Source of the DNA: a virus
Length of the DNA: 28,573 nt
Virus record (IMG/VR): IMGVR_UViG_3300011113_000195
Coordinates: 1 to 28,573 of that record
Direction: 5' to 3' (one strand)
Shown here: positions 3,486-28,565 of the stretch, one piece after another
Numbering within the stretch: the first letter of the stretch is position 1
How the letters are laid out: each line of letters begins with the position of its first letter
The notes under the pieces: model-generated
The model's database searches: none
Seen by the model: the letters and a program-made list of their open reading frames with translations, nothing else
Told to the model about the DNA's origin: nothing
Translations under genes and position numbers: made by a program

Positions 3486-4304
3486 TTAATAAATATTTAT
3501 TCCAAAGTAAGTTAATAAAGTATTTACTCTATTGCTAAAATTTGCCGATTCTGCATCTGTTAATCCGTCCCCAATTGAAGAGAAAGCACATTGTTTTGTT
3601 GTATAATAAAGATAACCTCCACCTGTAAATAATGCGCCTATGCTTATATTAGATGGTGTTTTACTTGTTGATGTGAGAGTTCCTGTATTAGCAAATACAG
3701 AACCGTTCTTTATAATTTTAACTACACTAGATGAAGTTCTTGAAGCTATATAGAAACCTTGCGAATTGCTATCAGCTGCTGAAATATAACCTGATTGATT
3801 AATTCCACCATATGTTGTTCCAGCTGTTCTTATTTCAAGAAAACTAATAGGATTACCACCAGCATTATTAGAACCTATTTCTACTTCTGTACCATTACTA
3901 TTCGTTCTTGAATAGAAACTTAAATGATTTGAATCTAATAATCCGTTTGTATTAGGGTTAAAATATGTTTGAGCATATGCGTTTGTCGGTGTCATACCAC
4001 TACTTGAATATGTCCATCCTGTTGAAAAAGTTAAACGGTATGATGCATCTGTATTTAATGGGTTAACTAAATTCCACTTAGAAGCCGATGCACTTCCCCA
4101 AATAGGTAAGTACATTGCTTTTATCTTAGTATAAATACCATCACTTTTAAGACCTAAATAAAATGTGTTTATAGCGTTCTTATCCGCTGTACTTGTTATT
4201 GCTGTGTTAGCAGTAAAGTAAGCTAAAGCATCAGCATCGTAAGCTACAGCACCACCAGCAACTGCATAATTTTTTGTTGTTATTGCTAAATTAGTTCCAA
4301 TCAT
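3486..4304 (-). CDS. lectin-like tail protein, receptor-binding candidate
   Basis: A 272-residue protein almost free of Cys, rich in Ser, Thr, Asn, Gly and Tyr, with short alternating beta segments throughout. Its end, CAFSSIGDGLTDAESANFSN then RVNTLLTYFGINIY, is the ending of concanavalin A/LamG-like domains found in phage and prophage tail proteins, where a final F-x-IGdgLtdaE helix closes a jelly roll. Such domains bind sugars on the host surface. It is in the fibre block between the 66-residue protein and the lysis genes, with a 14-base overlap at its start. It probably forms part of the adsorption device. There is no signal peptide. Confidence 0.6.
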   Translation of the reverse strand: MIGTNLAITTKNYAVAGGAVAYDADALAYFTANTAITSTADKNAINTFYLGLKSDGIYTKIKAMYLPIWGSASASKWNLVNPLNTDASYRLTFSTGWTYSSSGMTPTNAYAQTYFNPNTNGLLDSNHLSFYSRTNSNGTEVEIGSNNAGGNPISFLEIRTAGTTYGGINQSGYISAADSNSQGFYIASRTSSSVVKIIKNGSVFANTGTLTSTSKTPSNISIGALFTGGGYLYYTTKQCAFSSIGDGLTDAESANFSNRVNTLLTYFGINIY

Positions 4305-5569: not shown

Positions 5570-6715
5570 TTAATATCCTTTTATGTTAAATGAATACATT
5601 ACACTTATTGGATTTGTAACCCAATTAGGATTAGTTATTTGAATTATTAAACTATCATTTAAAGCATTAGCTAATGAGCTTCTAAAATATAACTGATTTA
5701 TTCTTTCACTATGTTTTATAGTTCCTAATGTTTGTTCTGTTGATTGAGTTATATTTTGAAGTTTAATAGTTGAATTTTCTGTACTTCCTAATGTTGTTCT
5801 AACAAATACAGTTACATAAATATCATAAATACAATTAGTCTTAATACTTTTAAAAGGTATAGTGTTAGTTGTTTCAGGTGCAAAATTATTTAAAGCACCT
5901 GAATAATAAATAGAAGCATCTGGAGGATTAACATTTGAAGTATCAGCATATAATTCAAAACTATATAATGGTGCTGGTGTATAACCTAAAACCGTAGCAA
6001 TTGATTTGTTTTCATATCTTGTTGTTCCTGAACTCCAAAAAATGCCATCATTATTTGTTGGTGTAGGTAAATAACAATCATGAAGCTCATTAATTTCATA
6101 ACCGTTATCAATCTTAACGTATATTTTCCCTTGGTTAGCATGAGCATATATAACATATCCTAAACGTACTCCATGATCTGGAGCTGTTGGTTTTACTTTT
6201 GTTATTCCTCCTGGAGTTGTAGCACTTAAAAATAAAGCATCACCATCTGCCCATGTTTCACCTTGTAAACTTCCTGTTGTATTTATTCCAGTAACCTCAC
6301 CAATAACAGTTAATTTACCACTTTGATTGTTATTTATATTTTCAAAAACAACACCAATAGTATTAGCACTATTTGAATCACTATCTGCTAAAGCATAATC
6401 AACCGCTAATCTTTGCCCTTGCGCAGTAATTACTTTTAAAACTTTATATTGAGATGCTAAAAGGTTATCAGTTGTTTTATTTACTACTGTTAAAAATAAA
6501 TTTTCAGGATAAGCACTTGCTCCACCTTCTGGCACATAGTCCAATTGTGACCATGTTTGAACTCCATCACCTATTTTAAAACGTTGTTGGTCTGTTGAGG
6601 TATAAAATAAATCACTTGTAAACGCAACCTCTCCGGCAGCTAATATCGGATTGTTTGTAGCCCAATTTGCTGCTGTATCTCTTCGTAATTGTATCTTTGC
6701 TGTTAATGTACTCAT
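5570..6715 (-). CDS. tail fibre / host-recognition protein with MTD-like N-terminus
   Basis: A 381-residue protein. Residues 5-70 (AKIQLRRDTAANWATNNPIL, AAGEVAFTSDL, FKIGDGVQTWSQLDYVPEGG) match the N-terminal domain of the major tropism determinant and many phage fibres: a qLRRgtaa.W...npiLa.GE.g.e.Dt....kiGDG...W..L pattern. Such domains trimerise and attach the fibre to the tail. Residues 90-210 look like a beta-rich shaft (VNKTTDNLLASQYKVLKVIT and onward). The C-terminal 150 residues are beta-rich and could carry the receptor-binding head. It overlaps the upstream gene by 4 bases. Confidence 0.75.
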   Translation of the reverse strand: MSTLTAKIQLRRDTAANWATNNPILAAGEVAFTSDLFYTSTDQQRFKIGDGVQTWSQLDYVPEGGASAYPENLFLTVVNKTTDNLLASQYKVLKVITAQGQRLAVDYALADSDSNSANTIGVVFENINNNQSGKLTVIGEVTGINTTGSLQGETWADGDALFLSATTPGGITKVKPTAPDHGVRLGYVIYAHANQGKIYVKIDNGYEINELHDCYLPTPTNNDGIFWSSGTTRYENKSIATVLGYTPAPLYSFELYADTSNVNPPDASIYYSGALNNFAPETTNTIPFKSIKTNCIYDIYVTVFVRTTLGSTENSTIKLQNITQSTEQTLGTIKHSERINQLYFRSSLANALNDSLIIQITNPNWVTNPISVMYSFNIKGY

Positions 6716-7373: not shown

Positions 7374-7937
7374 TTAGTAGCGTTTTCTTTTTTCAAATTT
7401 TTCTTCATAACTAATATATCTTTTGTTACGACCTAAGAAAATTCCATTATCGTAAGCATAAAGTTGAGGTACAATAGTATCAAAGCCACTGCCGGGATTA
7501 TCGTATAATGGATAGTCACTTGAATTTTCTAACAAATACTCAATTAATCTATTTGTATGATATTGCGCTTTGTCAGTAACTAAATTCATAAATTGATTTA
7601 ATTCTGAATAATCAACTCCCGTACTGTTATCACTATTTTTCCTTACAATGTTCTTATTAGTAACCTTATAAGTTAAGAATGGCGCAGCTTCAACCATAGT
7701 CCACCACTTTAAAGCAGGGATTATATAATCATCTAATAAAGTAGTATTTAAAGCTGTTAAACTTCCGCTTTGAACTTGACTTATAATTTCATTATAAAGC
7801 CCTGAACCAATATAATTACGAATGTGTATTTTTTGAGCTTCTTCAATTGAAATTCTAATATATTTTTCATCTACATTAGGATCTACAAATGTATAGTCCT
7901 TAATGTATGTTGCTGTTAATAATAATACTGTCGCCAT
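7374..7937 (-). CDS. head-tail connector / head completion protein
   Basis: A 187-residue, mostly helical protein. It begins MATVLLLTATYIKDYTFVDP, then has EEAQKIHIRNYIGSGLYNEI, LLDDYIIPALKWWTMVEAAP, and a conserved-looking end with NRLIEYLLENSSDYPLY. Helical proteins of about 180-190 residues with a Y-I-G-x-x-L-Y motif and a W-rich middle helix usually follow the portal in Bacteroidota phages and are annotated as gp6-like connectors (DUF6712-type). They bind below the portal to join head and tail. The gene touches the portal stop-start at 7937, consistent with coupled translation. Confidence 0.6.
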   Translation of the reverse strand: MATVLLLTATYIKDYTFVDPNVDEKYIRISIEEAQKIHIRNYIGSGLYNEIISQVQSGSLTALNTTLLDDYIIPALKWWTMVEAAPFLTYKVTNKNIVRKNSDNSTGVDYSELNQFMNLVTDKAQYHTNRLIEYLLENSSDYPLYDNPGSGFDTIVPQLYAYDNGIFLGRNKRYISYEEKFEKRKRY

Positions 7938-9853
7938 TATTTTTTAGTTTTTACAACGTTAGCCTGCCAAATATGTCTGCAAAATGGTGTTCGTGCTTCA
8001 CCACCTTTACGAGTCCACCAACCACCTCTAAAATTCCAAACATCCCATCCTACTATCTTACTAATTTGTTCTATTTGGGCCCTTGAATACATTTTGTTTG
8101 CATCCAAAAGTTTAACACAAAACTCTCTGCTATTTCTTTTGTTTGGTTTTACACCTGGTCTCCATTCATAAGAGTACATGATTTTAAAATCTTCGAACTC
8201 ATTACCTATTTTATTAGCTTGTCTAATTGCTGAAGATTTAGGTACACGAATAACTTTTTTCTCACCGCCACTTACTTTCTCTTTTACGCTTATTTGCTCT
8301 TCATCTACAAGGTCTTTAATTAAGTCGGCTACTCTATCTTCTTTAATTCTTAAAGTATCTGCAATTGTCTTATTTTCCATTAATGGATCTTTGTCTAACA
8401 ATGCAACTATATCTCTTTTTAAACTATTGCTTAGAGGTGAAATTTCAGCAAACTCAAATTTGCCATCTTCATTCATAAACTTTTGCTCATAAAATTCAAA
8501 TGAGTCTTTATCTTCACCAAACATTTTAAAGATTTCAATTATCTCATCAATTTCAGAAACACTTTTAAATGAATGTTCACAACAAGTATCTTCAAGTTCA
8601 GGCTCACAAAATCTATGAATAGCACTTGAAACAATCGGCTTTACTTCCTCTTCTATTGGAGGTAATCCGTACATTTCACGAACTTCGTTTTTAGTCATTA
8701 CCTTTATTTTTTCTTCAATAGGTAACTGTTCTTCTAATGGCTCAAGTTCTTTTAAATAAATACGATTTCCAAATCCTTTTAACTTTAATAAGTAATTAAA
8801 ATCCTTTTCTATTTCTCTTTGATTTGGTACTATGTAAGTTGATTTGTAAAGTTCGTAAGAATCATTTATCTGGTCTTTATTACCTAACTCTCCAGGTGTT
8901 TTAATACCTACTAACATAGGGTTTGGAATGTGATGCCCTATGATTAATTCTTGAATAACTTGGTCGTTTAATTCAGTCAATTGAGCATCTACGTTTTGAG
9001 GTGTTAAATGTTCAATTGTTGGAGCTGTTTCTCTATTGCCACTAAATGAAATTAGTAAACTATTAGCCCTATCTGTTCCGGTGAATTTCTCTTTTAAACG
9101 TGCTTCAATTTCTTCTTTCTCTTCTTCAGTTGGTCTGCCGTTTGAAAAGTTTAAAATTGTGCCTGCGTTAAAGCCACTTTTTATAGCATTTAATCTGTAA
9201 TTAGAAAGCTCAACATCAACCTCTGCATAAACTGCTGAAGCTACATAGTCAGGTAATGGATAAGCATCTAAGTCAGGTCTGTATTCTTTACTTACAAAGA
9301 TTTGTCTGCCTGTTGGTTTCTCAGGATCAAATAATGGAATATACTCTAAGTCGGTATCTTCAGGTGTTTGCTTTTGCTTACTCCAATCTTTAGAATACCA
9401 ATAACCATCGGCATCTTTTGCTTTTCTTAGGTTGTTGTAAGGAAAATGTAATATCTCAAAGTTGTTACCTGCTTTATTCCAAATAACCTCTAAATAATAA
9501 CCTCCGAATAACTTTTTATCTAATACACATTTTTTTACAATGTCTTTTAAAGTATCGAAATTAGTATTCTCTTTATTTAAAAAGTCATTTGCTCTCGCTA
9601 TATCTTCAATTGACAAACTATCACTATCAAAGCCAACACCAGCGCCACAAATGTATAAAACCTTACCGTTAATAAAAGCGTTATGCTTAGAAGAACGATT
9701 GTACAAATAAAGCAAATAAGCTGGGTAATTATTGTAATAGCCATCTCTTTCAGCTCCATAAATAATCCACTCTTTTGATTTCTCTTCTTTAAATACAGGT
9801 GTTTTATGTGCCTGTAGTTTAAGGTTAATTACATCGTATATATTATTCTCCAT
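7937..9853 (-). CDS. portal protein with a C-terminal helix-turn-helix-like and Cys/His extension
   Basis: A 638-residue protein. Residues 1-400 show portal features: a mixed N-terminus (YYNNYPAYLLYLYNRSSKHN, ANDFLNKENTNFDTLKDIVK), a middle (YRLNAIKSGFNAGTILNFSN, EEKEEIEARLKEKFTG) and a stem-like helix near IQELIIGHHIPNPMLVGIKT. The portal forms the dodecameric DNA channel of the capsid. Residues 474-525 form a winged-helix-like unit (SLKRDIVALLDKDPLMENKT then IADTLRIKEDRVADLIKDLV). Residues 575-638 hold FC (579), FRGGWW and CRHIW (625-629), like C-terminal domains of MuF-type head proteins. Its start overlaps the upstream gene by 11 bases. At 638 residues it is long for a portal. Confidence 0.8.
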   Translation of the reverse strand: MENNIYDVINLKLQAHKTPVFKEEKSKEWIIYGAERDGYYNNYPAYLLYLYNRSSKHNAFINGKVLYICGAGVGFDSDSLSIEDIARANDFLNKENTNFDTLKDIVKKCVLDKKLFGGYYLEVIWNKAGNNFEILHFPYNNLRKAKDADGYWYSKDWSKQKQTPEDTDLEYIPLFDPEKPTGRQIFVSKEYRPDLDAYPLPDYVASAVYAEVDVELSNYRLNAIKSGFNAGTILNFSNGRPTEEEKEEIEARLKEKFTGTDRANSLLISFSGNRETAPTIEHLTPQNVDAQLTELNDQVIQELIIGHHIPNPMLVGIKTPGELGNKDQINDSYELYKSTYIVPNQREIEKDFNYLLKLKGFGNRIYLKELEPLEEQLPIEEKIKVMTKNEVREMYGLPPIEEEVKPIVSSAIHRFCEPELEDTCCEHSFKSVSEIDEIIEIFKMFGEDKDSFEFYEQKFMNEDGKFEFAEISPLSNSLKRDIVALLDKDPLMENKTIADTLRIKEDRVADLIKDLVDEEQISVKEKVSGGEKKVIRVPKSSAIRQANKIGNEFEDFKIMYSYEWRPGVKPNKRNSREFCVKLLDANKMYSRAQIEQISKIVGWDVWNFRGGWWTRKGGEARTPFCRHIWQANVVKTKK

Positions 9854-10889: not shown

Positions 10890-11858
10890 TTAAGCGTTAG
10901 TATATTGTACTACGTGATCGATGAACTTAACTGCACAGCCAGCTCTGAAAGCTCCAAATACCTTATATACTCGGTCATCCTGTGAGTACCATGCTTCGAT
11001 AGTATCAGTATCAGATTGTAAGTCAGTTCCGTAAACTAAGTTTGAAGCGTAAGTTGCAATAACACGATTACGTGCTGCAGTAGGTAAACTACCTGTATCG
11101 ACTGGGTTATCGTTATTTAATCCGCTAACGGCAATAACCTTCATGTTAGTACCTGGATACATTAATTCCCAATTGTTCCATACATTATCAGTAGTGTACT
11201 GAGAACCATAGATGCCATAAGTAGAAGTTATCTTAGCAGCTAATACTCTGAAAGTATCATAACCACAGAAAGCAACGATTGGTTCGTTTGCAATTGCAGC
11301 AGCTGGTACTTTTGAATAAATATCATCAAATATAGTCAACACGTTAGTTGAGTTCAATGTTGAAGCTGTTGCTGCTACTGCTGTACCTGCTACATCAATT
11401 GTTCTTAACCAGCCATTCATTTGTTTTAATACTGTTGAATTGCCGTAAGTTGTTGAGCCCTGCCAAATCATTTGTTCTACGTTACGTGCTACTTGAGCAA
11501 TTTTTCTGTCGATAATGTTTTGTGCAATTGACATTGAATCTACGTTAGCTCCTGCCGGTAAATACTTTTGTGTAAAGTACACGTTTAAGTCATTTAAACA
11601 GAATTGTTCTGCAAACTGAATACCTACAGTTGCAATTTCAATTTGATTAATTGTTGTTGTTCCTGAAGAGGTAAAAGAACAAGCAGCCGATTGAAATGGT
11701 ACTGTTGATTCTAATACTGGGATTTTTGCTGAAGATTTGATTCCTGTACGGATGTCAACTCCTAACCCTAATGTTTTAGCGCCTAAAATCGCTTTGCTAA
11801 TTAAGTCCGCCTTATTTTCTTCAATATAAGCGGTCATTGTGCCTAATGAAAATGCCAT
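10890..11858 (-). CDS. major capsid protein
   Basis: A 322-residue protein of the HK97-fold capsid type. It has an N-terminal helix and arm (YIEENKADLISKAILGAKTL), an E-loop-like region (KSSAKIPVLESTVPFQSAAC), a spine-helix region (ISIAQN-like SIAQNIIDRKIAQVARNVEQ, with MIWQGSTTYGNSTVLKQMNG), a helix before LTIFDDIYSKVPAAAIANEP, and a C-terminal strand-rich core (RVYKVFGAFRAGCAVKFIDH). This order and length are typical of Bacteroidota siphophage capsids, and the scaffold-like and protease genes come just before it. The subunits assemble into the icosahedral head. The ATG at 11858 has an A-rich leader and no GGTACTT motif. A hairpin follows the stop codon. Confidence 0.85.
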   Translation of the reverse strand: MAFSLGTMTAYIEENKADLISKAILGAKTLGLGVDIRTGIKSSAKIPVLESTVPFQSAACSFTSSGTTTINQIEIATVGIQFAEQFCLNDLNVYFTQKYLPAGANVDSMSIAQNIIDRKIAQVARNVEQMIWQGSTTYGNSTVLKQMNGWLRTIDVAGTAVAATASTLNSTNVLTIFDDIYSKVPAAAIANEPIVAFCGYDTFRVLAAKITSTYGIYGSQYTTDNVWNNWELMYPGTNMKVIAVSGLNNDNPVDTGSLPTAARNRVIATYASNLVYGTDLQSDTDTIEAWYSQDDRVYKVFGAFRAGCAVKFIDHVVQYTNA

Positions 11859-20924: not shown

Positions 20925-22130
20925 TTACATTAGTGTGTATCGTCCTGTTTTATATTTTGAGTAAGCGTGGAATCCTAAACATGAAGCCATAACACCATCA
21001 TCATGGAATCCATTTGGAGCTGAGTATTTAATAACTCTGCTTTTAGGATTGTATTCATAAGTAAACATTTCTAATTCTTTATCTAACCAGTCCACGTTTA
21101 AGAATCTTACCTCTTTATTTTGATTGGCTACAATTAAACTTTCAACTATTTCTTTTTTACTTTGATTTGTAGTAACAAATGGTTCTATTGTGCAGTAACT
21201 TGCACATTCCTTTTGTAACATTTCAAATATCACATCACCAATTGAATTAACCTCAACCAATGCAGTTTGGACATTATTTGTCCTTAATCCTTGAGCTATA
21301 TTCTTTACAATACTTTGCCAGTCAGTATGTCTCCATCGTTCAATGTAGAATTGTTCACCTTTTTCATTGAATAAAGACAGTACAGAGTAATCGTCTGCCC
21401 TTCCTAAGTCAATCCCGGCAAATGCTCTGCCATTTGCTTTATTATCACTTAACTGCCTATTATTGAATAGTGTTGCAGTACCATCTACAAACTCGGCTAA
21501 GTATTCCTGTCTAAATACCATATCTGGCAAAGTCAATTTAGCATCATCAATCTCTTTTGGATTAATCATTGGATTGTGGTACGAAGTCATTGTAAAGGAC
21601 TTGTACTGCTCATTAATACCATCTAATTGGTACATCTTATAAAAATGGTTTTTACCTTTTGGAGTTGAAATTAAAAGAACCTTTTTACCTTTTACCAATA
21701 CAGTTGCCCTTAATACCTCAGTCCATGCCTTTTCATCCATAAAGGCAAACTCATCACAAACCAGGTAATCGAATGTAAAACCTCGAATGTTATCATAACG
21801 CTCTGCACTAAAGAATTGAATTGTTGATCCTGTTATGTATTCGAGTACCAACTCAGATTGATTAACCTTTCTGTATATTTCAGGTCTTTTGGCAAATGCC
21901 TTAAAGCAATCGTCAAATACTTTCTTTGATTGTTTATAAATAGGACTTACCCATGCTATCCTAATTGACTTATTGTTTAAAGCCCAAAATAACATTTGAT
22001 TAATAGCTAATAAAGTTTTCCCAAACTGCCTACCTATGTTGATAACGTAGTACTTATGGTTTTCTTTATTTATGCTATCATGTATTTTCTTCTGATTCGG
22101 ATGTGGATTGTATAGTATTGCTTTCGCCAA
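20925..22130 (-). CDS. terL: terminase large subunit
   Basis: A 401-residue protein. Walker A is GRQFGKT at 33-39, and Walker B is YLVCDEFAFM with Asp126 and Glu127. The C-terminal nuclease has AGIDLGRADDYSVLSLF at about 235-250 and FHDDGVMASCLGFHAY at about 380-395, with Asp residues that would bind metal. It packages the phage genome into the prohead with energy from ATP and cuts the concatemer. The length fits the family. The start is TTG at 22130, inside the small-subunit gene, because the frame upstream is closed by a TGA and there is no Met before residue 46. It overlaps the small subunit by 53 bases. Confidence 0.92.
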   Translation of the reverse strand: MAKAILYNPHPNQKKIHDSINKENHKYYVINIGRQFGKTLLAINQMLFWALNNKSIRIAWVSPIYKQSKKVFDDCFKAFAKRPEIYRKVNQSELVLEYITGSTIQFFSAERYDNIRGFTFDYLVCDEFAFMDEKAWTEVLRATVLVKGKKVLLISTPKGKNHFYKMYQLDGINEQYKSFTMTSYHNPMINPKEIDDAKLTLPDMVFRQEYLAEFVDGTATLFNNRQLSDNKANGRAFAGIDLGRADDYSVLSLFNEKGEQFYIERWRHTDWQSIVKNIAQGLRTNNVQTALVEVNSIGDVIFEMLQKECASYCTIEPFVTTNQSKKEIVESLIVANQNKEVRFLNVDWLDKELEMFTYEYNPKSRVIKYSAPNGFHDDGVMASCLGFHAYSKYKTGRYTLM

Positions 22131-22455
22131 AGTCTGCTGTGAATTTCATATTACCGGTAACCTTAACATCTTGTTGTTCAATGTACCCTCTTTTCTTTGC
22201 TTTACACTTTAAATAAAACATTGTACTAAGTGGATTGCCTTTTTTAATCTGTTGGTGCAATGCTGACTCCGCAAAGTCTAAAGCTACATTGTCAATCTCT
22301 TTAACTTTACGTTTATACTCTTTATCTTTCTTTAACCAGTCATAGTGTGTATCACGATTAATACCAACCTCTTTACATGCGCTTGAAACCACATTTAAGT
22401 GTTTTTCTAATGCAAGTAACATCCTTTCTTTTAATATGTCGGAATTTGACGCCAT
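22078..22455 (-). CDS. terS: terminase small subunit-like protein
   Basis: A 125-residue protein with a helix-turn-helix at about 15-50 (LALEKHLNVVSSACKEVGIN, RDTHYDWLKKDKEYKRKVKE), then helices (DNVALDFAESALHQQIKKGN then PLSTMFYLKCKAKKRGYIEQ), and an acidic or polar tail. This HTH plus oligomerising helices is the layout of phage small terminase subunits, and the gene stands directly before the large-subunit gene with a 53-base overlap. It recognises the packaging site on phage DNA. The ATG at 22455 is 37 bases below a GGTACTT motif that contains the stop codon of the DUF3310 gene. Confidence 0.8.
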   Translation of the reverse strand: MASNSDILKERMLLALEKHLNVVSSACKEVGINRDTHYDWLKKDKEYKRKVKEIDNVALDFAESALHQQIKKGNPLSTMFYLKCKAKKRGYIEQQDVKVTGNMKFTADFGESNTIQSTSESEENT

Positions 22456-22492: not shown

Positions 22493-22684
22493 AATATATC
22501 TCTCTAAATACCATTTAGCCTTTAAAAGGTCTTCTTTTGTCTTTGTGAGGTCTTTTTTACCTGCTCTGCTAATATACTTAACTACGTTACCCAAATGAAA
22601 GTTTAGTTCCCAAGCTTCTATTACTTTAATAGCTTCATAGGTTGTATCTCCTCCATAGTGTTTTGGGTTATTTACTGCTTCCAT
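22481..22684 (-). CDS. DUF3310 family protein
   Basis: A 67-residue protein, MEAVNNPKHYGGDTTYEAIK, then VIEAWELNFHLGNVVKYISR, AGKKDLTKTKEDLLKAKWYL, ERYIG. It is an almost textbook DUF3310: NPxHY, a Glu-Ala-Ile motif, F-x-L-G-N-V-v-K-Y-i-s-R-a-g-k and a KA..YL..y helix. DUF3310 proteins are common phage proteins and are often called nucleotide kinase-like, but their role is not established. It has a TAATG overlap with the upstream gene. Its last codons (ggt act tta taa on the coding strand) contain the motif noted for the small terminase gene. Confidence 0.9.
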   Translation of the reverse strand: MEAVNNPKHYGGDTTYEAIKVIEAWELNFHLGNVVKYISRAGKKDLTKTKEDLLKAKWYLERYIGTL

Positions 22685-22866
22685 TACATTATAACAGTTT
22701 GATTTGTTTCTAAATTAGTAATTGACATATTTTCTTTTTCCATTCCCATAATTATAATAACTTTTTCAGTATTATATGCTTTACATATATTATCTTTTAA
22801 ACTTTTATATTCTTTTAAAGGCAATATATGTTTTAAAAATAAAGTTATTGATAATTTATTTTCCAT
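22684..22866 (-). CDS. hypothetical small protein
   Basis: A protein of 60 residues with no recognised family. It starts MENKLSITLFLKHILPLKEY and includes ICKAYNTEKVIIIMGMEKEN and ITNLETNQTVIM. The middle looks like a hydrophobic strand (VIIIMGM), the rest mixed. I chose ATG 22866 over the TTG at 22881 because it is the first ATG and overlaps the upstream stop codon by 11 bases, as other genes here do. It ends in a TAATG overlap with the DUF3310 gene. Its function is unknown. Confidence 0.5.
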   Translation of the reverse strand: MENKLSITLFLKHILPLKEYKSLKDNICKAYNTEKVIIIMGMEKENMSITNLETNQTVIM

Positions 22867-23050
22867 CTTTAATAACTGCAAGTAAGTATTCTAATAGTTG
22901 TTTTCTGCAATCCCCACATCCTAAGTTAAAAGGTTTGTTTCCACATTTTATAGCTAATTCATTAAGTTCAGTCCAATTAAATGTAGGTGAGTAATTTTTC
23001 CCCATCTGCTCCCACTTCAATAATTGTTCTTTTATGTTCTCAGGAATCAT
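22856..23050 (-). CDS. hypothetical small protein with a CGDC motif
   Basis: A 64-residue protein, MIPENIKEQLLKWEQMGKNY, then TELNELAIKCGNKPFNLGCG and DCRKQLLEYLLAVIKDGK. It has CxxxxxxxxxCGxC-type Cys residues (C46, C55, C58 by eye) that might bind zinc in a small zinc-finger-like domain. It overlaps the CPxC membrane protein gene by 4 bases and follows a GGTACTTATT motif whose tail forms the start codon. No family recognised. Confidence 0.5.
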   Translation of the reverse strand: MIPENIKEQLLKWEQMGKNYSPTFNWTELNELAIKCGNKPFNLGCGDCRKQLLEYLLAVIKDGK

Positions 23051-23271
23051 AATAAGTACCTATCATTTATCTGTTCAATTAGTGATGCCAATAAAGCAAA
23101 GGTAAAAGGAATAGTCAATAAATCAAAATATGTGGTAAAGTTTATTATCTGATAAATTAAGAAACTCCAATAAGTTAAGCAAAGCGGACACGTAAATGGT
23201 TTTCTCATTAACAATTTAGGCTTAGGTATGTATTTTGCTATTATGTAAGTAGTTGCTAAAAGTTGTAACAT
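23047..23271 (-). CDS. small membrane protein with CPLC motif (DUF1360-like)
   Basis: A 74-residue protein with the motif KPFTCPLCLTYWSF at about 24-37, then hydrophobic stretches (LIYQIINFTTYFDLLTIPFT, FALLASLIEQIN) that form one or two membrane helices. The CPxCxxxW motif before membrane helices is like DUF1360 proteins, which are small membrane proteins found in phages and bacteria, with no known role. It ends the glycosylation operon and overlaps the next gene by 4 bases. A small membrane protein in a sugar operon may help move lipid-linked sugars, but this is only a guess. Confidence 0.6.
   Translation of the reverse strand: MLQLLATTYIIAKYIPKPKLLMRKPFTCPLCLTYWSFLIYQIINFTTYFDLLTIPFTFALLASLIEQINDRYLL
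23051..23060 (-). promoter_or_regulatory. GGTACTTATT motif upstream of the 64-residue gene
   Basis: The minus strand reads GGTACTTATTATG, with the ATG of the CGDC gene at its end. It is the shortest spacing among the seven copies and lies inside the end of the CPLC gene. Confidence 0.5.
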
Positions 23272-23272
23272 T

Positions 23273-23968
23273 TTAATTTATTCCTTGAGCTTTAAATACT
23301 ATTGTTTCATTTAATGGTTCATCTTCTGGTGCTGCATATTGTAGAATTGTATTCCCTGAATGATATTTCATTCGTAATTGATTAGCTATTATACTTCCGC
23401 AAGTCATATCGTGCCTATGACCTTTGCACCTTTCATCTTCACTTTCTGTTTTATCGTTATTATTCCATTTACCGATAAATATTCCATCTTTTGATGCTTG
23501 ATGCCATTTGTTAAAAAATTCTTTAGCTATTTGATTATCAAAATTTAACCCTAATAAACCAGCATTTCCATACATTAACATTTTCATGGCTTCATCTCTA
23601 TTTATATTAAAATAGTTTAAGCATTTATCATTTGCCCATGTACCTACATAATGTCCTGCTTCCTGCATTAAATATCCATCTTTCTCAATTAACTCAAATA
23701 TATGATCTATATTCTTAATTAAATAAACAGATGAATCTAACCAAAGTATTTTTTTATAACCTAAATTTTTTACTCTTTCAAATATAAAAGTTTTAAATGC
23801 GTAAGGGTTTTGTGTATGTAATGGGCAAGGTACTTGCTCTTCATCTGTAAATATAAAGAGTTCGCCTTTAAAGTTATGTTCTTGCGCTGTTCTTTTTAAT
23901 CTTGCTGCTCCATTTGAATAGCTACTATTCGCAAAGCAAATAATTGCACATTCAGTAAAGTTTATCAT
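23273..23968 (-). CDS. glycosyltransferase-like protein (GT-A, GT8-like)
   Basis: A protein of about 231 residues from ATG 23968. It opens INFTECAIICFANSSYSNGA, has KKILWLDSSVYLIKNIDHIF with LDSS at about 77-80, then YVGTWANDKCLNYFNINRDE and CKGHRHDMTCGSIIANQLR. A beta strand ending in a D-S-S or D-x-D-like motif, then a hydrophobic helix with a W-N-D-x-C loop, resembles GT-A transferases such as GT8 and related families of unknown fold detail. It likely transfers a sugar from a nucleotide sugar. I used ATG 23968 rather than the TTG at 23974. It overlaps the preceding GT2 gene by 17 bases. Confidence 0.6.
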   Translation of the reverse strand: MINFTECAIICFANSSYSNGAARLKRTAQEHNFKGELFIFTDEEQVPCPLHTQNPYAFKTFIFERVKNLGYKKILWLDSSVYLIKNIDHIFELIEKDGYLMQEAGHYVGTWANDKCLNYFNINRDEAMKMLMYGNAGLLGLNFDNQIAKEFFNKWHQASKDGIFIGKWNNNDKTESEDERCKGHRHDMTCGSIIANQLRMKYHSGNTILQYAAPEDEPLNETIVFKAQGIN

Positions 23969-24533
23969 AGTCAATATATCTGTAATGGTAAATAGGTTCT
24001 TTTATTTCTACTTCCGTTTTTATTAAATTAAACTTTTTCAGTTCCATGCAGAAAGCATAATCCTCAAAGTTACTCTTATCTTCAAACTTAATACTTTTTG
24101 CTATTTCTCTTTTAATTGGAGTTATGTGATTGGTTGATCTTAAATAAACTTCTTGTCCACTTGAGTAATCTGTTATGTAAGGATGATCTTTAGAAATATA
24201 CCAGGAGCGTTTATTTCTTCCATTTGTAGTCATAAATCCATTTATAGCTAAAGCATCAGGTTCTTTTTCCAATGCTGCTAAAACTAAACTAACTGCATTT
24301 GGTAATATCATATCATCATCATCAATAAACCAAACGTAGTCACCGTTAGCTGCATTTAGTAAATCATTTCTTTTTTTTCCGGTAGTCTTTGATCCAACTG
24401 GAGCACAATCACTTATAACCTCAACAAGCCCAAAAGCATTACACATCTCTAACTGATTATTTATTTCAGTATGTAATTCTAAAAATAAATTAGCTCTTTG
24501 TGGTACTGTTGGTATAAGTATTGAAAGTATCAT
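23952..24533 (-). CDS. glycosyltransferase family 2 protein
   Basis: A 193-residue protein that begins MILSILIPTVPQRANLFLEL, then NGDYVWFIDDDDMILPNAVS with DDDD at 71-74, LVLAALEKEPDALAING, and later KSNFEDYAFCMELKKFNLIK. This is a GT2 (GT-A) enzyme: N-terminal nucleotide-binding strand, DxD metal motif, and an ED motif near the active site. It transfers a sugar from a nucleotide sugar to an acceptor, possibly a glycan. It is short for GT2 (typically 230-320). It overlaps its neighbours by 4 and 17 bases, within the sugar operon. Confidence 0.78.
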   Translation of the reverse strand: MILSILIPTVPQRANLFLELHTEINNQLEMCNAFGLVEVISDCAPVGSKTTGKKRNDLLNAANGDYVWFIDDDDMILPNAVSLVLAALEKEPDALAINGFMTTNGRNKRSWYISKDHPYITDYSSGQEVYLRSTNHITPIKREIAKSIKFEDKSNFEDYAFCMELKKFNLIKTEVEIKEPIYHYRYIDYDKLY

Positions 24534-25111
24534 GAAGTATAGAATGATAATTTTTTAAAGTTAGTTAAAGTCATAAATTTATCCTGAGTTTTACGAAGTA
24601 CACAATAAACATTCCATCCATCTGTAGTATTATTCATTGCAGGGTGTTCTCCGATTTCTAATATCTCATAACCGTTAGCTTCGGCTAATTGTTTATAGAA
24701 ATCAATATCTACATAATTAAAACCATGACCTGGCCAATTACCTGTTTTTGGATTCTCACTAATTATAATACCACCGACCTCGCAGGCATTATGTTTATTT
24801 AACCAACAATTATAAAATGCTTTAGGATTATATTTTCCATTTATACCAACATGTTCACTTGTACCAAAGTCAGTTACTATATCAAATTTATCTAAACTTA
24901 GTTTAGTCGCTAAATCAAGTTCTAAGGCATTATTTTCTTTGTTTAAATCTAAACAAGTATATTGACATCCTTTTTTATTATAATACTTATCAGCATAGGG
25001 TACGCCTTCCCATTCCCATGAATATAAATTTTGCGCTCCAAGTTCTAAAACTTTGCTATTTTCTTTAACATACTTATTTAAAAGTGTTAAACTAAAATCT
25101 GTTATTCCCAT
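24530..25111 (-). CDS. SAM-dependent methyltransferase (class I)
   Basis: A 193-residue protein. Motif I is NSKVLELGAQNLYSWE at 18-33, the acidic residue ending strand 2 is in YTCLDLNKEN (51-60), and motif II/III is FDIVTDFGTSEHV at 76-88. A later strand pair reads GIIISENPKTGNWPGHGFNY and YEILEIGEHPAM. This is a class I Rossmann methyltransferase that takes its methyl group from SAM. Its substrate is unknown; because it is among glycosyltransferases and FkbM, a sugar or glycan is likely. It overlaps both neighbours by a few bases. Confidence 0.75.
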   Translation of the reverse strand: MGITDFSLTLLNKYVKENSKVLELGAQNLYSWEWEGVPYADKYYNKKGCQYTCLDLNKENNALELDLATKLSLDKFDIVTDFGTSEHVGINGKYNPKAFYNCWLNKHNACEVGGIIISENPKTGNWPGHGFNYVDIDFYKQLAEANGYEILEIGEHPAMNNTTDGWNVYCVLRKTQDKFMTLTNFKKLSFYTS

Positions 25112-25704
25112 ACTGATATTAAATTTTCGTTATTTACTAATAATGTTTTCATATTATACCTTCTTAATTCACGCATAATATCGTTATACTGATGCCCGTT
25201 ATGTTCAATACATAAACATTTACATCCTAACTCTTTTAAGTCCATTTGTTTTAAAATGCTTAAATCATAACCTTCAGCATCTATGTTTATAAAATCATAA
25301 ATTTGCCAATTGTAAAAATCTAAAAACTTAAGTGATTGTACTTTACTTTCTAAATATACAGTTGAGTTTTCCCATTTCTTTTTGTCAACTATTGAAAGAG
25401 TAGAAAGTAAGTCACTATCTCCATTACCTACATGTTCACCACTTGAATAAAATGTAAGTTCACCTCTTGAATCTGATATTGCTATATTATGTAGCTTAAC
25501 CTTTTTATTGTCTTTATATAATTCTTTTAATTTATTAAATGGTTTTTCTGCTGGTTCTATAAGTTCACCACTCCATCCAAGTTCTAAAAGTTTTCTACTA
25601 TTTGAGAAAGTAATTCCGTCGTTAGCTCCAATATCTAATAAGTTGCCTATTTTGTTTCCAAAAAAGCTAACTATTACCTCTTCTTCATTGTTTTGGCTAT
25701 ACAT
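25102..25704 (-). CDS. FkbM-family methyltransferase
   Basis: A 200-residue protein. It has LLDIGANDGITFSNSRKLLE with DIGANDG at 24-30, ELIEPAEKPFNKLK at 47-60, and the FkbM signature FINIDAEGYDLSIL at 138-151, then CKCLCIEHNG. FkbM enzymes are SAM-dependent O-methyltransferases that often act on sugars in lipopolysaccharide, capsule or glycoprotein. Here it would cap or modify a glycan made by the neighbouring transferases. It overlaps the next gene by 10 bases and the preceding one by 8 bases, which points to one coupled operon. Confidence 0.85.
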   Translation of the reverse strand: MYSQNNEEEVIVSFFGNKIGNLLDIGANDGITFSNSRKLLELGWSGELIEPAEKPFNKLKELYKDNKKVKLHNIAISDSRGELTFYSSGEHVGNGDSDLLSTLSIVDKKKWENSTVYLESKVQSLKFLDFYNWQIYDFINIDAEGYDLSILKQMDLKELGCKCLCIEHNGHQYNDIMRELRRYNMKTLLVNNENLISVWE

Positions 25705-26395
25705 TATAGTATTTATGTTTATTTATTATCAAATGCTTAGGTAAGAAATAATCTTCGCTTTTTCTGTATTTAAAAAGTCCATAGTCACTATTCCATAACT
25801 CCCTGCTCTCTGTTTTTCTGTATTGTTCATCGTATTCGCTTAATCCCCACGCAGGGTGCATGTGCCTAAATAGTATCTTATGGTCTCCCATGTATTTATA
25901 CTTTCCTAATAAGTGAGCTACTTCAGTAGCTTCAACATCACACCATAAAGATTTGTAGTCAGGATGATAAATATATTTGAAACGATTGTAATAGTCAAAA
26001 CCCATTATACTTAAAGTCATTATATTACCATGTTGGTTGCCATCTGAGTAATGAATAACCTGGTCATAATTTCCGTTAAAATCCTGCCTTATTATTTCAT
26101 CAAATCCTTTTATTTCAAAAGTCATGTCATCTGAAGTATTAATCAAAATATCCCAGCCTTCAAACAAATCCATATCCCTATTAATAGCATCTATTTTATT
26201 CTTTGAAGTTCCACGTACTATAAATACGTTATCATCTGGATAATTGAAACCAAACATACTTTCATCATCTTCATCAATGCTTACAAGTATTGTATAATTC
26301 ATTGAATTAGATAGCATTATGATATTTTCAATTGCTTTCTTTGCCTTTTGAGGTCTTGAGCGCGTAGCTAATTTAAAAAGTATATGTTCGTTCAC
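25697..26395 (-). CDS. glycosyltransferase-like protein (GT2-like)
   Basis: A 232-residue protein. It opens HILFKLATRSRPQKAKKAIE, has YTILVSIDEDDESMFGF, EGWDILINTSDDMTFEIKGF with SDD at 88-90, and KILFRHMHPAWGLSEYDEQY. The first strand-turn (TRSRP), the SxDD motif and the later HMHPAWG with Y-x-x-x-Y-R are like family 2-type GT-A transferases, some of which are found in phages and capsule loci. It probably transfers a sugar from a nucleotide donor. The start is GTG at 26395, in a GTGA overlap with the upstream stop codon; this overlap type recurs in this window. Confidence 0.65.
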   Translation of the reverse strand: MNEHILFKLATRSRPQKAKKAIENIIMLSNSMNYTILVSIDEDDESMFGFNYPDDNVFIVRGTSKNKIDAINRDMDLFEGWDILINTSDDMTFEIKGFDEIIRQDFNGNYDQVIHYSDGNQHGNIMTLSIMGFDYYNRFKYIYHPDYKSLWCDVEATEVAHLLGKYKYMGDHKILFRHMHPAWGLSEYDEQYRKTESRELWNSDYGLFKYRKSEDYFLPKHLIINKHKYYNV

Positions 26396-27048
26396 TTTTC
26401 AAAATTATAAAAGATTTTATCACTTTGCAATTCATTAATAAAAACTTTTCTATTTTCTTCTATTAACTTTGCTTTTTTGTATTCAGGAATACTTGACTTA
26501 TGTTCCATGTTATAATCCATAGCAAATAAATATTCTTTTGTTCGTGATAGTTGTTGATAAGGAGCGTATGTGAAACCAGCTTTATAAATTCTGTTAGAGT
26601 AACCTGCATGTTCAAATCCATACTGCCCATAATCAGAATTTAAATAACCTACTTTATCCAGTACCTCTTTTGTTAGAAACATAAACACCCCACCACAATC
26701 TTGATATATCTCTATATCGTCTTTTATGATAATTTTATTATGTTTTTTAGTTAAGTATAATAAATGATTTTGTTTTGAGTTTATGAAGTAGTCAGCCCAT
26801 CCCTCTTTTACCGGGTAACAGTCATCGTCAAACAAAAAAATGTAATCGTTATCTATCAAAGTCTTTAAATTTTGATTTTTTGAATAAGCAACTCCACGAT
26901 AATGTACATCTTCATGAATGTGTAAATGATAGTTGTTAGGCTTTACTTTTTCAAATTCTTTAAGCCATGTATCAATGTATTCACTTCTATTTGGTGTGCT
27001 TGTTACACCAATTCCAATACTAATTCTTCTTTTCGTTTCTCGGTCCAT
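26392..27048 (-). CDS. glycosyltransferase-like protein (GT2/GT7-like)
   Basis: A 218-residue protein. It opens ISIGIGVTSTPNRSEYIDTW, has DNDYIFLFDDDCYPVKEGWA with DDD at 74-76, and CGGVFMFLTKEVLDKVGYLN then SDYGQYGFEHAGYSNRI at 118-153. The D-D-D motif and the GG-V-F-M-F...D-K-V-G-Y-L...GFEhaGySNRI region resemble GT2 or galactosyltransferase (GT7 C-terminal) proteins, where the second part binds the acceptor. It probably adds a sugar to a glycan. Its start overlaps the GT4 gene by 46 bases, and its end overlaps the next gene by 4. Confidence 0.7.
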   Translation of the reverse strand: MDRETKRRISIGIGVTSTPNRSEYIDTWLKEFEKVKPNNYHLHIHEDVHYRGVAYSKNQNLKTLIDNDYIFLFDDDCYPVKEGWADYFINSKQNHLLYLTKKHNKIIIKDDIEIYQDCGGVFMFLTKEVLDKVGYLNSDYGQYGFEHAGYSNRIYKAGFTYAPYQQLSRTKEYLFAMDYNMEHKSSIPEYKKAKLIEENRKVFINELQSDKIFYNFEK

Positions 27049-28028
27049 GTGTTTAAATTATAGTTTTTATTCGTATATTCTTTTAATTTCTCTGCATAAT
27101 CCTGGCGCATCTGAGAGCTTTCAGTTAGTCGCTTTATTGCTTTATACCAACCGTTTATGTCGCTATTATCTAAAAATATTGCAGTATCTTTTGTAAATAT
27201 GTTATAAGGTTTAACGTTTGAAACTATTGCAGCATTTCCATGAGCAGCAGCTTCAAGTAGCTTAATTTCCGACTTGCCTTCCGTAAATATGTTTTTTTCT
27301 AATGGTATTAAACTAACATCAGTTAGGTTATAGGCTTTCCCATACTCATAAACGTTAATAGCATTTATTCTTAGGTAGTTACCTTGTTTCATTACTGATT
27401 CATAATATTTGTAATGATCGTTATTTGTATAACCCCCTAAAACAAATTGAGCATTGTTTACCTGCCTTGCTTTTCTTATCGGTATTTGAAGTATCTTAAC
27501 ATCCTGAACATGATGTACTCCAGCAATATAACCAAAACGAATATATTGTGAAGGCTCTTTTTTAGGCTGCCATTGCTCATCTGTTAGGTCTAAACAATTA
27601 GGATAAACCTTTACATTCTTATTAAATGGTATTATTTTGTCAGCAAGTATTTCAGTAGTGCAAGTTACAATATCAACGTGTTTTAAAATATCTTCAGTTT
27701 GCTTTACTATTTGATATTCTTTATACACTTTAAACAAAGCATGAGATTGTGGTAAATGCCAATAATCATCAATGTCAAATATTACTTTACAGCCTAACTT
27801 TTGAAACCTTTTAATTTTCTCTATTGACTTTCCGTATACATCAATTTCACGCTGATAAACAATATACTGATAGTCTTTTATTACTTCGTCTGGCATTACA
27901 TCCAAATCTTCGTAAACATCACATTTAAAGTTAGTGAGGTCTGAAACTTTTGAATAAGGCACTATTAATCGGTGATAGGATAACCCATTAAGGTTTCCCA
28001 TGTTAGCCTTTATTAAAATTTTTATCAT
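27003..28028 (-). CDS. glycosyltransferase family 4-like protein
   Basis: A 341-residue protein with two Rossmann-like halves. The first has KILIKANMGNLNGLSYHRLI, then VIFDIDDYWHLPQSHALFKV (82-101). The second has RFGYIAGVHHVQDVKILQI, FVLGGYTNNDHYKYY, DVSLIPLEKNIFTEGKSEIK and LLEAAAHGNAAIVSNVKPYN; Glu250 and Glu259 lie in the EX7E-like motif of family 4 retaining glycosyltransferases (248-270). It transfers a sugar from a nucleotide donor, as in glycan or LPS assembly. The ATG at 28028 overlaps the sigma-like gene by 26 bases. Confidence 0.82.
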   Translation of the reverse strand: MIKILIKANMGNLNGLSYHRLIVPYSKVSDLTNFKCDVYEDLDVMPDEVIKDYQYIVYQREIDVYGKSIEKIKRFQKLGCKVIFDIDDYWHLPQSHALFKVYKEYQIVKQTEDILKHVDIVTCTTEILADKIIPFNKNVKVYPNCLDLTDEQWQPKKEPSQYIRFGYIAGVHHVQDVKILQIPIRKARQVNNAQFVLGGYTNNDHYKYYESVMKQGNYLRINAINVYEYGKAYNLTDVSLIPLEKNIFTEGKSEIKLLEAAAHGNAAIVSNVKPYNIFTKDTAIFLDNSDINGWYKAIKRLTESSQMRQDYAEKLKEYTNKNYNLNTWTEKRKEELVLELV

Positions 28029-28491
28029 TGTGCTGTCGTTTTAATTTCTCTTTGATTTGTTTTATATCATTTGCAACTGTTCTGTAAGGAATCTTAGTCT
28101 TATCACTTAATTTTTTAGCATCTCCATGTTGAATATAAAGTTTTAATAGGTTCTGCTCATAAAACTCAGATTCTGTTTGTGGTGAGTAACTTAAAAAGTT
28201 AATTAAAGTTGAATAATCAATTTCATCTTCATTTTCTATTACCTCGTTTAAATTATCTACATACTGAACGAAATCAGTTAAGTATTTTTTTTTAAACTTA
28301 TTTGAGTGCCAGGTTCTCCAACAAACAGCAGAGTAAAAGTGTTTAAGGTTTCTAATTTCTGACAAGTCAAACTTTTTCTCTATTATGATTAAAACGCTTT
28401 CAAAATGTAGATCTTCCCAGAGATAGTGATTGTGGCAAACGTTACGCGTTATCTGTTTGTATATTCTGTTATTAACAAGTTCATCAATCAC
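28003..28491 (-). CDS. sigma-70-like protein (region 2 and region 4-like)
   Basis: A protein of about 162 residues. The front half (NNRIYKQITRNVCHNHYLWE, DLHFESVLIIIEK) resembles sigma region 2, which has L...i...ic.n...aEDL.qe..l.l.., and a C-terminal HTH (GDAKKLSDKTKIPYRTVAND then IKQIKEKLKRQ) resembles region 4. It may direct host RNA polymerase to phage genes. I chose GTG 28491, which overlaps the stop codon of the upstream small peptide in GTGA form; a TTG at 28509 in frame is the alternative. GTGA overlaps recur here (5099 and 26395). It is first in the sugar operon. Confidence 0.6.
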   Translation of the reverse strand: MIDELVNNRIYKQITRNVCHNHYLWEDLHFESVLIIIEKKFDLSEIRNLKHFYSAVCWRTWHSNKFKKKYLTDFVQYVDNLNEVIENEDEIDYSTLINFLSYSPQTESEFYEQNLLKLYIQHGDAKKLSDKTKIPYRTVANDIKQIKEKLKRQHNDKNFNKG

Positions 28492-28565
28492 TTTGACAAA
28501 ATTAAACAAATCAATAAGAAAGTTGCAATTAAAATAAACTGAATATCAGTTTTTTTTATTTTCAT
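28488..28565 (-). CDS. tiny membrane peptide (25 aa)
   Basis: A short frame from ATG 28565 with a basic start (MKIKKTDIQF) followed by a hydrophobic stretch (ILIATFLLICLILSK) that would span a membrane. A GGA sits 2 bases before its start codon, with AAAA before that. Its TGA forms a GTGA overlap with the likely start of the sigma-like gene, which suggests translation coupling. It is too short for most gene finders. A chance frame in AT-rich DNA is possible; the basic-then-hydrophobic layout and the overlap favour a real peptide. Confidence 0.4.
   Translation of the reverse strand: MKIKKTDIQFILIATFLLICLILSK

Follow-up and report, generated by a model that had tools for sequence, protein, structure and literature searches.

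Exchangeable glycosyltransferase and methyltransferase genes in a probable virion-glycosylation locus of a small freshwater phage

The window analyzed here, a stretch of 28,573 nucleotides of viral DNA, carries on its minus strand a block of glycan-modifying genes that probably serves, with sugar donors taken from the host, as a polymorphic locus for virion glycosylation; acceptor protein and glycan are unproven. The source is a small freshwater bacterial virus, probably of Bacteroidota (a plausible, not proven, host group), with a genome of about 35 kb, of which the cassette makes up roughly 13%. The nearest isolate match of the portal protein is in Nonlabens phage P12024S/L (tblastn E 2e-23), and a profile scan of bacterial genomes with the terminase large subunit (TerL) found three short metagenome-bin contigs, one of them in a Chitinophagaceae bin, which is weak evidence of the host.

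All seven cassette open reading frames are present at 23273–28028 on the minus strand and encode five glycosyltransferases (GTs) and two methyltransferases in one overlapping run (table 1), with overlaps, from upstream to downstream, of 46, 4, 8, 10, 4, and 23 bases. The gene of a small helix–turn–helix (HTH) protein, which is the constant first gene of the late block in relatives, overlaps the GT4 gene by 26 bases, the gene that follows the cassette starts 1 base past the last GT gene, and the same run continues into the terminase genes, TerS and TerL, approximately 0.8 kb downstream. An operon of overlapping or 1-base-apart genes ahead of the terminase genes is what the preliminary description had claimed, and this is confirmed, as is its count of five GTs and two methyltransferases, each of the seven being supported by a profile, a homolog, or a predicted fold. 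Its gene identities hold up: five are supported by sequence families, whereas the second methyltransferase and the last GT, without a sequence-family match above cut-off, are supported by predicted fold. The last GT is GT8-like in fold, as labelled, but does not belong to family GT8 by sequence (PF01501 13.7 bits, cut-off 24.3; no DxD motif).

Table 1. Features of the window, from the first gene of the late block downstream
Feature	Position	Strand	Evidence
Small protein, weak C-terminal HTH (sigma/regulator-like)	28003..28509	-	HTH_11 14.7 bits, below cut-off
GT4-type (GT-B) glycosyltransferase, constant part	27003..28028	-	PF13692 28 bits; PF13524 25.5 bits; phrog_7162 9e-46
GT2/GT7C-like glycosyltransferase, constant part	26392..27048	-	phrog_2456 1.5e-39
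GT2-like glycosyltransferase (GTx), constant part	25697..26395	-	phrog_14945 2e-15
FkbM-family methyltransferase, variable slot, type A	25102..25704	-	PF05050 57.4 bits
Class I SAM methyltransferase without sequence family	24530..25111	-	AlphaFold2 pLDDT 82; Foldseek E 7e-7, prob 1.00
GT2 glycosyltransferase, in types A and B	23952..24533	-	PF00535 38.4 bits; phrog_14775 4e-32
GT-A fold glycosyltransferase, GT6/GT8-like	23273..23974	-	AlphaFold2 pLDDT 83.5; Foldseek best E 1.4e-5
Small hydrophobic protein, conserved, directly after slot	23047..23271	-	Downstream exchange boundary; identity resumes there (A vs. B)
Terminase small subunit (TerS)	22078..22455	-	phrog_309 5e-7
Terminase large subunit (TerL)	20925..22130	-	phrog_2 5.4e-50
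Probable major capsid protein, candidate acceptor	10890..11858	-	PF17236 SU10_MCP 25.8 bits; phrog_1623
Portal protein	7937..9853	-	phrog_33693 2.4e-38
Hypervariable tail/adhesin-like protein	3486..4304	-	Adjoins tail fibre with Mtd_N; alignment

Homologs of the GT4 protein are found in phi92 (gp164 and gp163) and Klebsiella phage 05F01 (gene_135), and those of the GT7-like protein in phi92 (gp165) and mycobacteriophage Spikelee (gp101; 32% over 91% of the protein, E 4e-26). GTx is approximately 25% identical to annotated GTs of Streptomyces phages, and the GT2 protein matches Che8 gp108 (29.5% over 183 aa, 67 bits). The first methyltransferase belongs to the FkbM family (PF05050 cut-off 22.7, residues 24–184). 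The second matches no Pfam or PHROG family above cut-off in profile searches and is predicted from its model to be a class I SAM methyltransferase with a Rossmann-like class I fold. The last GT has Asp-Ser-Ser (DSS) in an allele alignment where the DxD motif usually sits, and its alleles in relatives are strongly divergent (about 34%); on the predicted structure we expect it to work like a GT-A enzyme and do not file it as GT8. Its listed start is TTG, and many aligned homologs begin at an in-frame ATG six bases further in, at 23968, which is likely the true start. When five of the cassette protein families were searched by profile against PDB sequences, nothing credible was found. None of the seven proteins has a membrane span by hydropathy or any strongly hydrophobic segment, and the GTs look soluble; the small protein encoded directly after the cassette exceeds every cassette enzyme in 19-residue hydropathy. 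The cassette genes are under purifying selection (median dN/dS 0.07–0.17, similar to the phage's other genes), which, together with a gene order conserved in dozens of contigs, indicates that the arrangement is not due to chance.

The main feature of the locus is invisible from the sequence alone: the 3' half forms a slot whose contents are exchanged for non-homologous alternatives. Among related contigs, 50 unique ones cover the slot in full; all of them (50/50) contain glycan enzymes, and we distinguished 27 of type A, to which the window belongs, 22 of type B, and 1 of type C. The flanks are constant, consisting of the first three GT genes before the slot and the small hydrophobic protein gene after it, and gene order is fixed within each type; a few genes without a family co-occur with the GT- or methyltransferase-type genes. 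The alternatives join these flanks at gene borders or close to them; since every relative is a metagenomic contig, any given join could be an assembly error. Nucleotide identity between types A and B is approximately 85–91% on both sides, drops at or near the 3' end of GTx, which varies by cassette type and lies near a recombination boundary, and is restored at the gene that follows the slot. The GT2 gene is shared by both types as alleles about 45% identical. Within type A, the position of the second methyltransferase is occupied by the unclassified class I enzyme, a TylF protein (125.8 bits), a second FkbM protein (59 bits), or nothing, which suggests that a methylated glycan matters more than any one enzyme.

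On a TerL tree of 43 contigs, the distribution of types A and B needs 13 changes, of which at least 9 are forced by well-supported branches, and shuffled labels need a mean of 14.4; A/B pairs of contigs reach 100% TerL identity. Cassette type is thus random with respect to the TerL tree and unlinked from neighboring genes, as is characteristic of an exchangeable island. Among 35 genes tested for virion genes co-varying with cassette type, none was convincing after allowing for that number. Outside the cassette, only the gene of the adhesin-like protein stood out as a candidate clue to the acceptor, and it was rejected: its nominal p = 0.002 is lost on correction for 35 genes, and the association is broken by the window, whose adhesin groups with the other type.

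Although type is exchanged freely, the cassette as a whole goes with one head–tail module and not with the early, adhesin, or tail-fibre genes. Relatives that have the same early, tail-fibre, and adhesin genes (the adhesin-like protein is shared by them too) and a diverged head–tail module are without the window's cassette. One such contig (G035) is 99.3% identical to a cassette-bearing contig (G004) over 7.9 kb, and the two part 13 bases ahead of where the late block's first gene starts. We rejected the idea that these relatives carry no glycan genes at all, since the more complete contigs (G024, G025, G028, and G030) have another cassette, of GT4, GT2, DUF5672, GT25, and methyltransferase genes, which lies between the genes for capsid and portal and shares no detectable homology with that of the window. 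The link between cassette and module is partly one of physical proximity, as block exchange would carry the cassette along.

The preliminary description had offered virion decoration and host-surface change without choosing, and the evidence now favors the virion. Under the alternative, the enzymes alter LPS or capsule sugars and block adsorption of released or competing phages, by serotype conversion or superinfection exclusion. Published authors have read similar phage GT clusters as changing the host O-chain (PMC7029224) and aquatic-phage GT cassettes as changing the host surface (PMC7029224; PMC11946311), and polymorphism would suit variable host glycans; the nominal link between the adhesin-like gene and cassette type (uncorrected p = 0.002 among 35 genes) would also suit it, but the window itself breaks that link. 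We consider this alternative unlikely, given that the cassette stays with one head–tail module and that relatives with a diverged module have an unrelated glycan cassette, that the GTs look soluble, without membrane spans by hydropathy, and no GtrA (PF04138) was found in 22 related records, and that homologs occur in Che8-like mycobacteriophages whose capsids are reportedly glycosylated, although GT homology at the 27–32% level does not fix the acceptor. In addition, nothing in the gene lists viewed points to lysogeny, and late expression may leave little time for surface remodeling.

A neutral cargo site, a metaviromic-island hotspot at which mixed-use glycan genes pile up without a common product, would account for the frequent exchange, and flexible islands including GTs have been described in Bacteroidetes phages (PMC7468147); it is improbable in that every complete slot holds GT- or methyltransferase-type genes, plus the few genes without a family that accompany them, under purifying selection and in an order fixed within each type. 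Still less credible is a function in protection from restriction, with the GTs adding sugars to modified bases of the phage DNA, a role that the preliminary description had already thought less likely and that our searches weaken further. DNA-modifying GTs are known from phages, and a C5-cytosine methylase-like gene lies upstream of the block in some relatives (PF00145 35.5 bits), but other relatives keep the cassette and lack the methylase. Moreover, 23 related records, some of them fragments, contain no match to hydroxymethylase families, either Tet/JBP dioxygenases (PF12851, for which the search is the weaker one, its control having given no above-cut-off match) or thymidylate synthase/hydroxymethylase (PF00303), and methylation of sugars or small molecules is the better fit for FkbM and TylF methyltransferases.

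Based on these observations, together with the position of the cassette inside the structural gene block, in the run that leads to TerS and TerL, we propose the following for virion glycosylation. Expression of the cassette probably accompanies that of the structural block, which its genes head. On a virion protein of this head–tail module, a short core would be assembled by the three constant GTs (GT4, GT7-like, and GT2-like), with nucleotide sugars presumably supplied by the host; consistent with this and with the preliminary description, which saw no sugar-nucleotide synthesis gene, the sugar-nucleotidyltransferase family searched is absent from 22 related records. The exchangeable enzymes, here the FkbM and class I methyltransferases, the GT2, and the GT8-like GT, may then extend and methylate the core, in that presumed order of core before slot. 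Exchange of the slot among related phages would yield particles that differ in their outer sugars, a polymorphism resembling bacterial serotypes whose selective reason may be evasion of glycan-binding or receptor-based recognition, or tuning of adsorption. More tentatively, and at somewhat less than even odds, we speculate that freshwater Bacteroidota phages own a serotype system in which non-homologous cassettes, recombining so frequently that type loses its link to neighboring genes, provide alternative virion glycans, are held near even frequency by negative frequency-dependent selection (through host glycan recognition, or grazers or defence), and were acquired independently in two head–tail modules on one chassis.

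To our knowledge, virion glycosylation of phages is known experimentally in few groups. The locus suggests that among uncultured phages it is common and varies greatly, with exchangeable GT/methyltransferase sets present in genomes of only about 35 kb. Since phages that are otherwise nearly identical differ in cassette, the locus offers a natural comparison for the role of virion glycans in adsorption, host or grazer evasion, and stability, and its GT/methyltransferase combinations could be drawn on to make methylated glycans.

The kind of system is known, and its exchangeable, module-linked organization appears new. Capsid glycans have been reported for Che8-like mycobacteriophages (PMC11256854; Freeman et al. 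2023, as cited in PMC12619734), and Che8/Rita and cluster F1 phages encode soluble GTs, as does the window. On GT homology (Spikelee gp101 to the GT7-like and Che8 gp108 to the GT2 protein) the window resembles this mycobacteriophage type in its genes; unlike it, however, those phages infect another host phylum and have fewer GTs, at the right end of the genome, and no annotated FkbM or TylF in the stretch viewed. Corndog, a cluster O mycobacteriophage, has genes for an O-methyltransferase and GTs, located between those for portal and protease, for which capsid modification was proposed (PMC4351075); by described gene content and place, both loci combine a methyltransferase and GTs within a structural operon, and Corndog differs in the portal–protease position and in having three GTs and one methyltransferase. 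The phi92-like Escherichia phage cluster (gp163–gp166) likewise has its GT4 (gp164) and GT7-like (gp165) homologs side by side, but comprises four annotated GTs with no methyltransferase in the stretch and is not beside the terminase genes. The Gtr serotype-conversion cassettes of temperate phages are comparable only in how they work, as phage-encoded, serotype-like glycan variation; the window is not a member (PF04138 is unmatched in the 22 related records, and the seven proteins are without a strongly hydrophobic segment), having neither GtrA nor a membrane GT and the virion as proposed target. Comparable in exchange behavior, with exchangeable GTs in a conserved backbone, are the hypervariable LPS/GT region of pelagimyophages (PMC7029224) and the metaviromic islands of cryoconite phages (PMC7468147); there, large regions of mixed content or lists of flexible genes are described, whereas the window combines a fixed GT core with alternative complete sets, borders at or near gene borders, and a tie to the head–tail module.

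The window is a single IMG/VR virus record of 28573 bases in which seven genes overlap on one strand, forming a glycan cassette. In order of transcription they are predicted to encode a GT4-type glycosyltransferase (GT), a GT2/GT7C-like GT, a GT2-like GT (GTx), an FkbM methyltransferase, a second methyltransferase, a GT2, and a GT8-like GT; the terminase genes lie ~0.8 kb downstream. Pfam and PHROGs back five of the seven, and give no sequence family above the cut-off for the second methyltransferase or the GT8-like GT. AlphaFold2 models of these two proteins, for which alignments of relatives were the input, match class I SAM methyltransferases and GT-A enzymes of the GT6/GT8 type, respectively. 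An alignment of alleles shows Asp-Ser-Ser in the GT8-like GT at the position usually occupied by DxD, and several of its best structural matches are GT6 enzymes, one of them a metal-independent bacterial GT6.

More than 200 relatives of the large terminase subunit (TerL) were found in IMG/VR, and across them the gene order is HTH gene, GT4, GT7-like, GTx, an exchangeable slot, a small hydrophobic gene, and the terminase genes. The slot is complete in 50 unique contig groups, of which 27 carry type A, 22 type B, and one type C. Type A consists of FkbM, then a class I methyltransferase, TylF, a second FkbM, or nothing, then GT2 and GT8-like genes; identity among its GT8-like alleles falls to ~34%, and some are fused to an additional GT2 domain. 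Type B comprises a GT2 allele and a 272-aa protein plus one of two pairs: a 234-aa protein with a weakly methyltransferase-like one of 166 aa, or a 224-aa protein with a weakly DUF4254-like one of 87 aa. None of the 272-, 234-, and 224-aa proteins matches a family, and it is their context that makes them putative glycan enzymes. Type C contains GT2, DUF5672, and methyltransferase genes. In one 4.7 kb contig (L047), GT4 and GT7 are followed directly by the post-slot gene, without GTx or any slot gene, reflecting either deletion or misassembly.

As to slot boundaries and INDEPENDENCE, window DNA is ~85–91% identical to several type B contigs on both flanks. Upstream, homology ends within the GTx gene or at its end, ~0–125 bases before the stop, and it returns at the post-slot gene; inside the slot, alignment is limited to the first part of GT2 (~70%). 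Among type A cassettes, replacement affects the methyltransferase and GT8 positions individually. TerL, TerS, and other flanking genes of type A and B contigs are up to 99–100% identical, and both types occur together in single metagenomes (e.g., 3300008448, 3300035703, 3300042335, and 3300044641). When mapped on a 43-contig TerL tree, the A/B label requires 13 changes, at least 9 of them forced by well-supported branches; shuffled labels average 14.4 changes, a test limited to whether the label is clustered on this tree. ERF annealing and NinG genes are present in relatives and could drive the exchange. The relatives are metagenomic contigs throughout, with genes called mechanically by script, and individual joins may be assembly errors, but the exchange patterns repeat across samples. 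Some of the records are incomplete, which limits the absence tests. In one contig (L203) a different TerL family lies beside a type A cassette in an otherwise similar neighborhood, so a change of terminase need not involve the cassette. About 177 bases of the window are absent from its nearest relatives, L003 and L048.

Positions of features in the window and in related contigs
Feature	Record	Position	Strand
Glycan cassette	Window	23273-28028	-
GT4	Window	27003-28028	-
GT7-like	Window	26392-27048	-
GTx	Window	25697-26395	-
Small hydrophobic gene	Window	23047-23271	
HTH gene, start of late block	Window	28003-28509	-
Stretch absent from nearest relatives	Window	~22684-22860	
Adhesin-like gene	Window	3486-4304	
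Tail fibre	Window	5570-6715	
Different TerL family	L203	3361-4560	
ParB-like protein	L328	1061-1564	
Locus upstream of late block	L014	61-720	
Locus upstream of late block	L067	2641-3453	
Locus upstream of late block	L328	1575-2438	

A scan with a conserved early gene identified contigs that share early genes (31–89% identical to those of the window), tail fibre, and adhesin with the window group but whose head-tail module is diverged: its TerL belongs to a different family (Terminase_3), and its portal, tape measure, and capsid differ as well; proteins of the two modules are at most distant homologs (~20–40%). One such contig (G035) is 99.3% identical to a type B genome (G004) across 7.9 kb, with divergence setting in 13 bases ahead of the opening gene of the G004 late block. 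The window cassette is absent from all diverged-module contigs examined, the more complete of which have a cassette of their own, situated between portal and capsid-side genes and composed of GT4 (84.5 bits), GT2-like, DUF5672 (97 bits), GT25-like, and methyltransferase-like genes and, in one contig, a hexapeptide acyltransferase; of the proteins of this cassette, DUF5672 alone has relatives in the window-type set (44–48%). Thus, two head-tail modules on one chassis each have a non-homologous glycan cassette, at different positions. Proximity could be the reason that a cassette moves with its head-tail module; it leaves unexplained that the other module has its own. A short conserved stretch that precedes the late block by ~220 bases, possibly a small gene (beginning MKT), occurs in most genomes with the window-type module and in two with the diverged one, and is likely a recombination anchor.

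Other sites also vary. Directly upstream of the late block, some relatives have a C5-cytosine methylase-like gene and others a PAPS-reductase-like gene, possibly marking a second variable, defense-related slot. Four contigs (L014, L018, L045, and L062) have an extra insert between the nucleotide-kinase-like gene and TerS that encodes a ParB-like protein and variable partners; a similar ParB-like protein in L328 matches PF02195. The tail fibre has a Major-tropism-determinant N-terminal domain (PF18454, 43 bits) and adjoins a hypervariable adhesin-like protein whose association with cassette type is nominal (p=0.002, uncorrected), with the window breaking the pattern.

Some relatives' contigs reach 33–35 kb, and several of these begin and end near the same gene, which suggests a phage genome of ~35 kb, with the cassette occupying ~13%. 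The only isolate matches to the portal are Nonlabens phages P12024S/L, whose host is a marine flavobacterium. Shine–Dalgarno-like motifs precede 4 of 39 starts (10%) versus 9% of random positions, a lack of enrichment that fits expectation for Bacteroidota, and a Chitinophagaceae bin includes a contig of 3.1 kb whose TerL is 88% identical. Together these observations make a Bacteroidota host probable, at the phylum level only.

The cassette most likely serves to glycosylate a virion protein, the glycan being short and methylated. The sugar donors would be supplied by the host, given that nucleotidyltransferases were absent from the relatives searched. That the enzymes instead modify the host surface, or glycosylate DNA, we consider less likely than glycosylation of a virion protein. 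Many other virus contigs encode homologs of the GT8-like enzyme, mostly inside permuted GT/FkbM/TylF/methyltransferase runs, which in one recurrent lineage directly precede a portal gene; this GT/methyltransferase combination is therefore widespread among uncultured phages. Among characterized phages, the mycobacteriophage Corndog has a comparable O-methyltransferase/GT group inside its structural operon (PMC4351075), and cluster F1 mycobacteriophages, for which glycans are reported on the major capsid protein (PMC11256854), encode homologs of the window's GT7-like and GT2 proteins.
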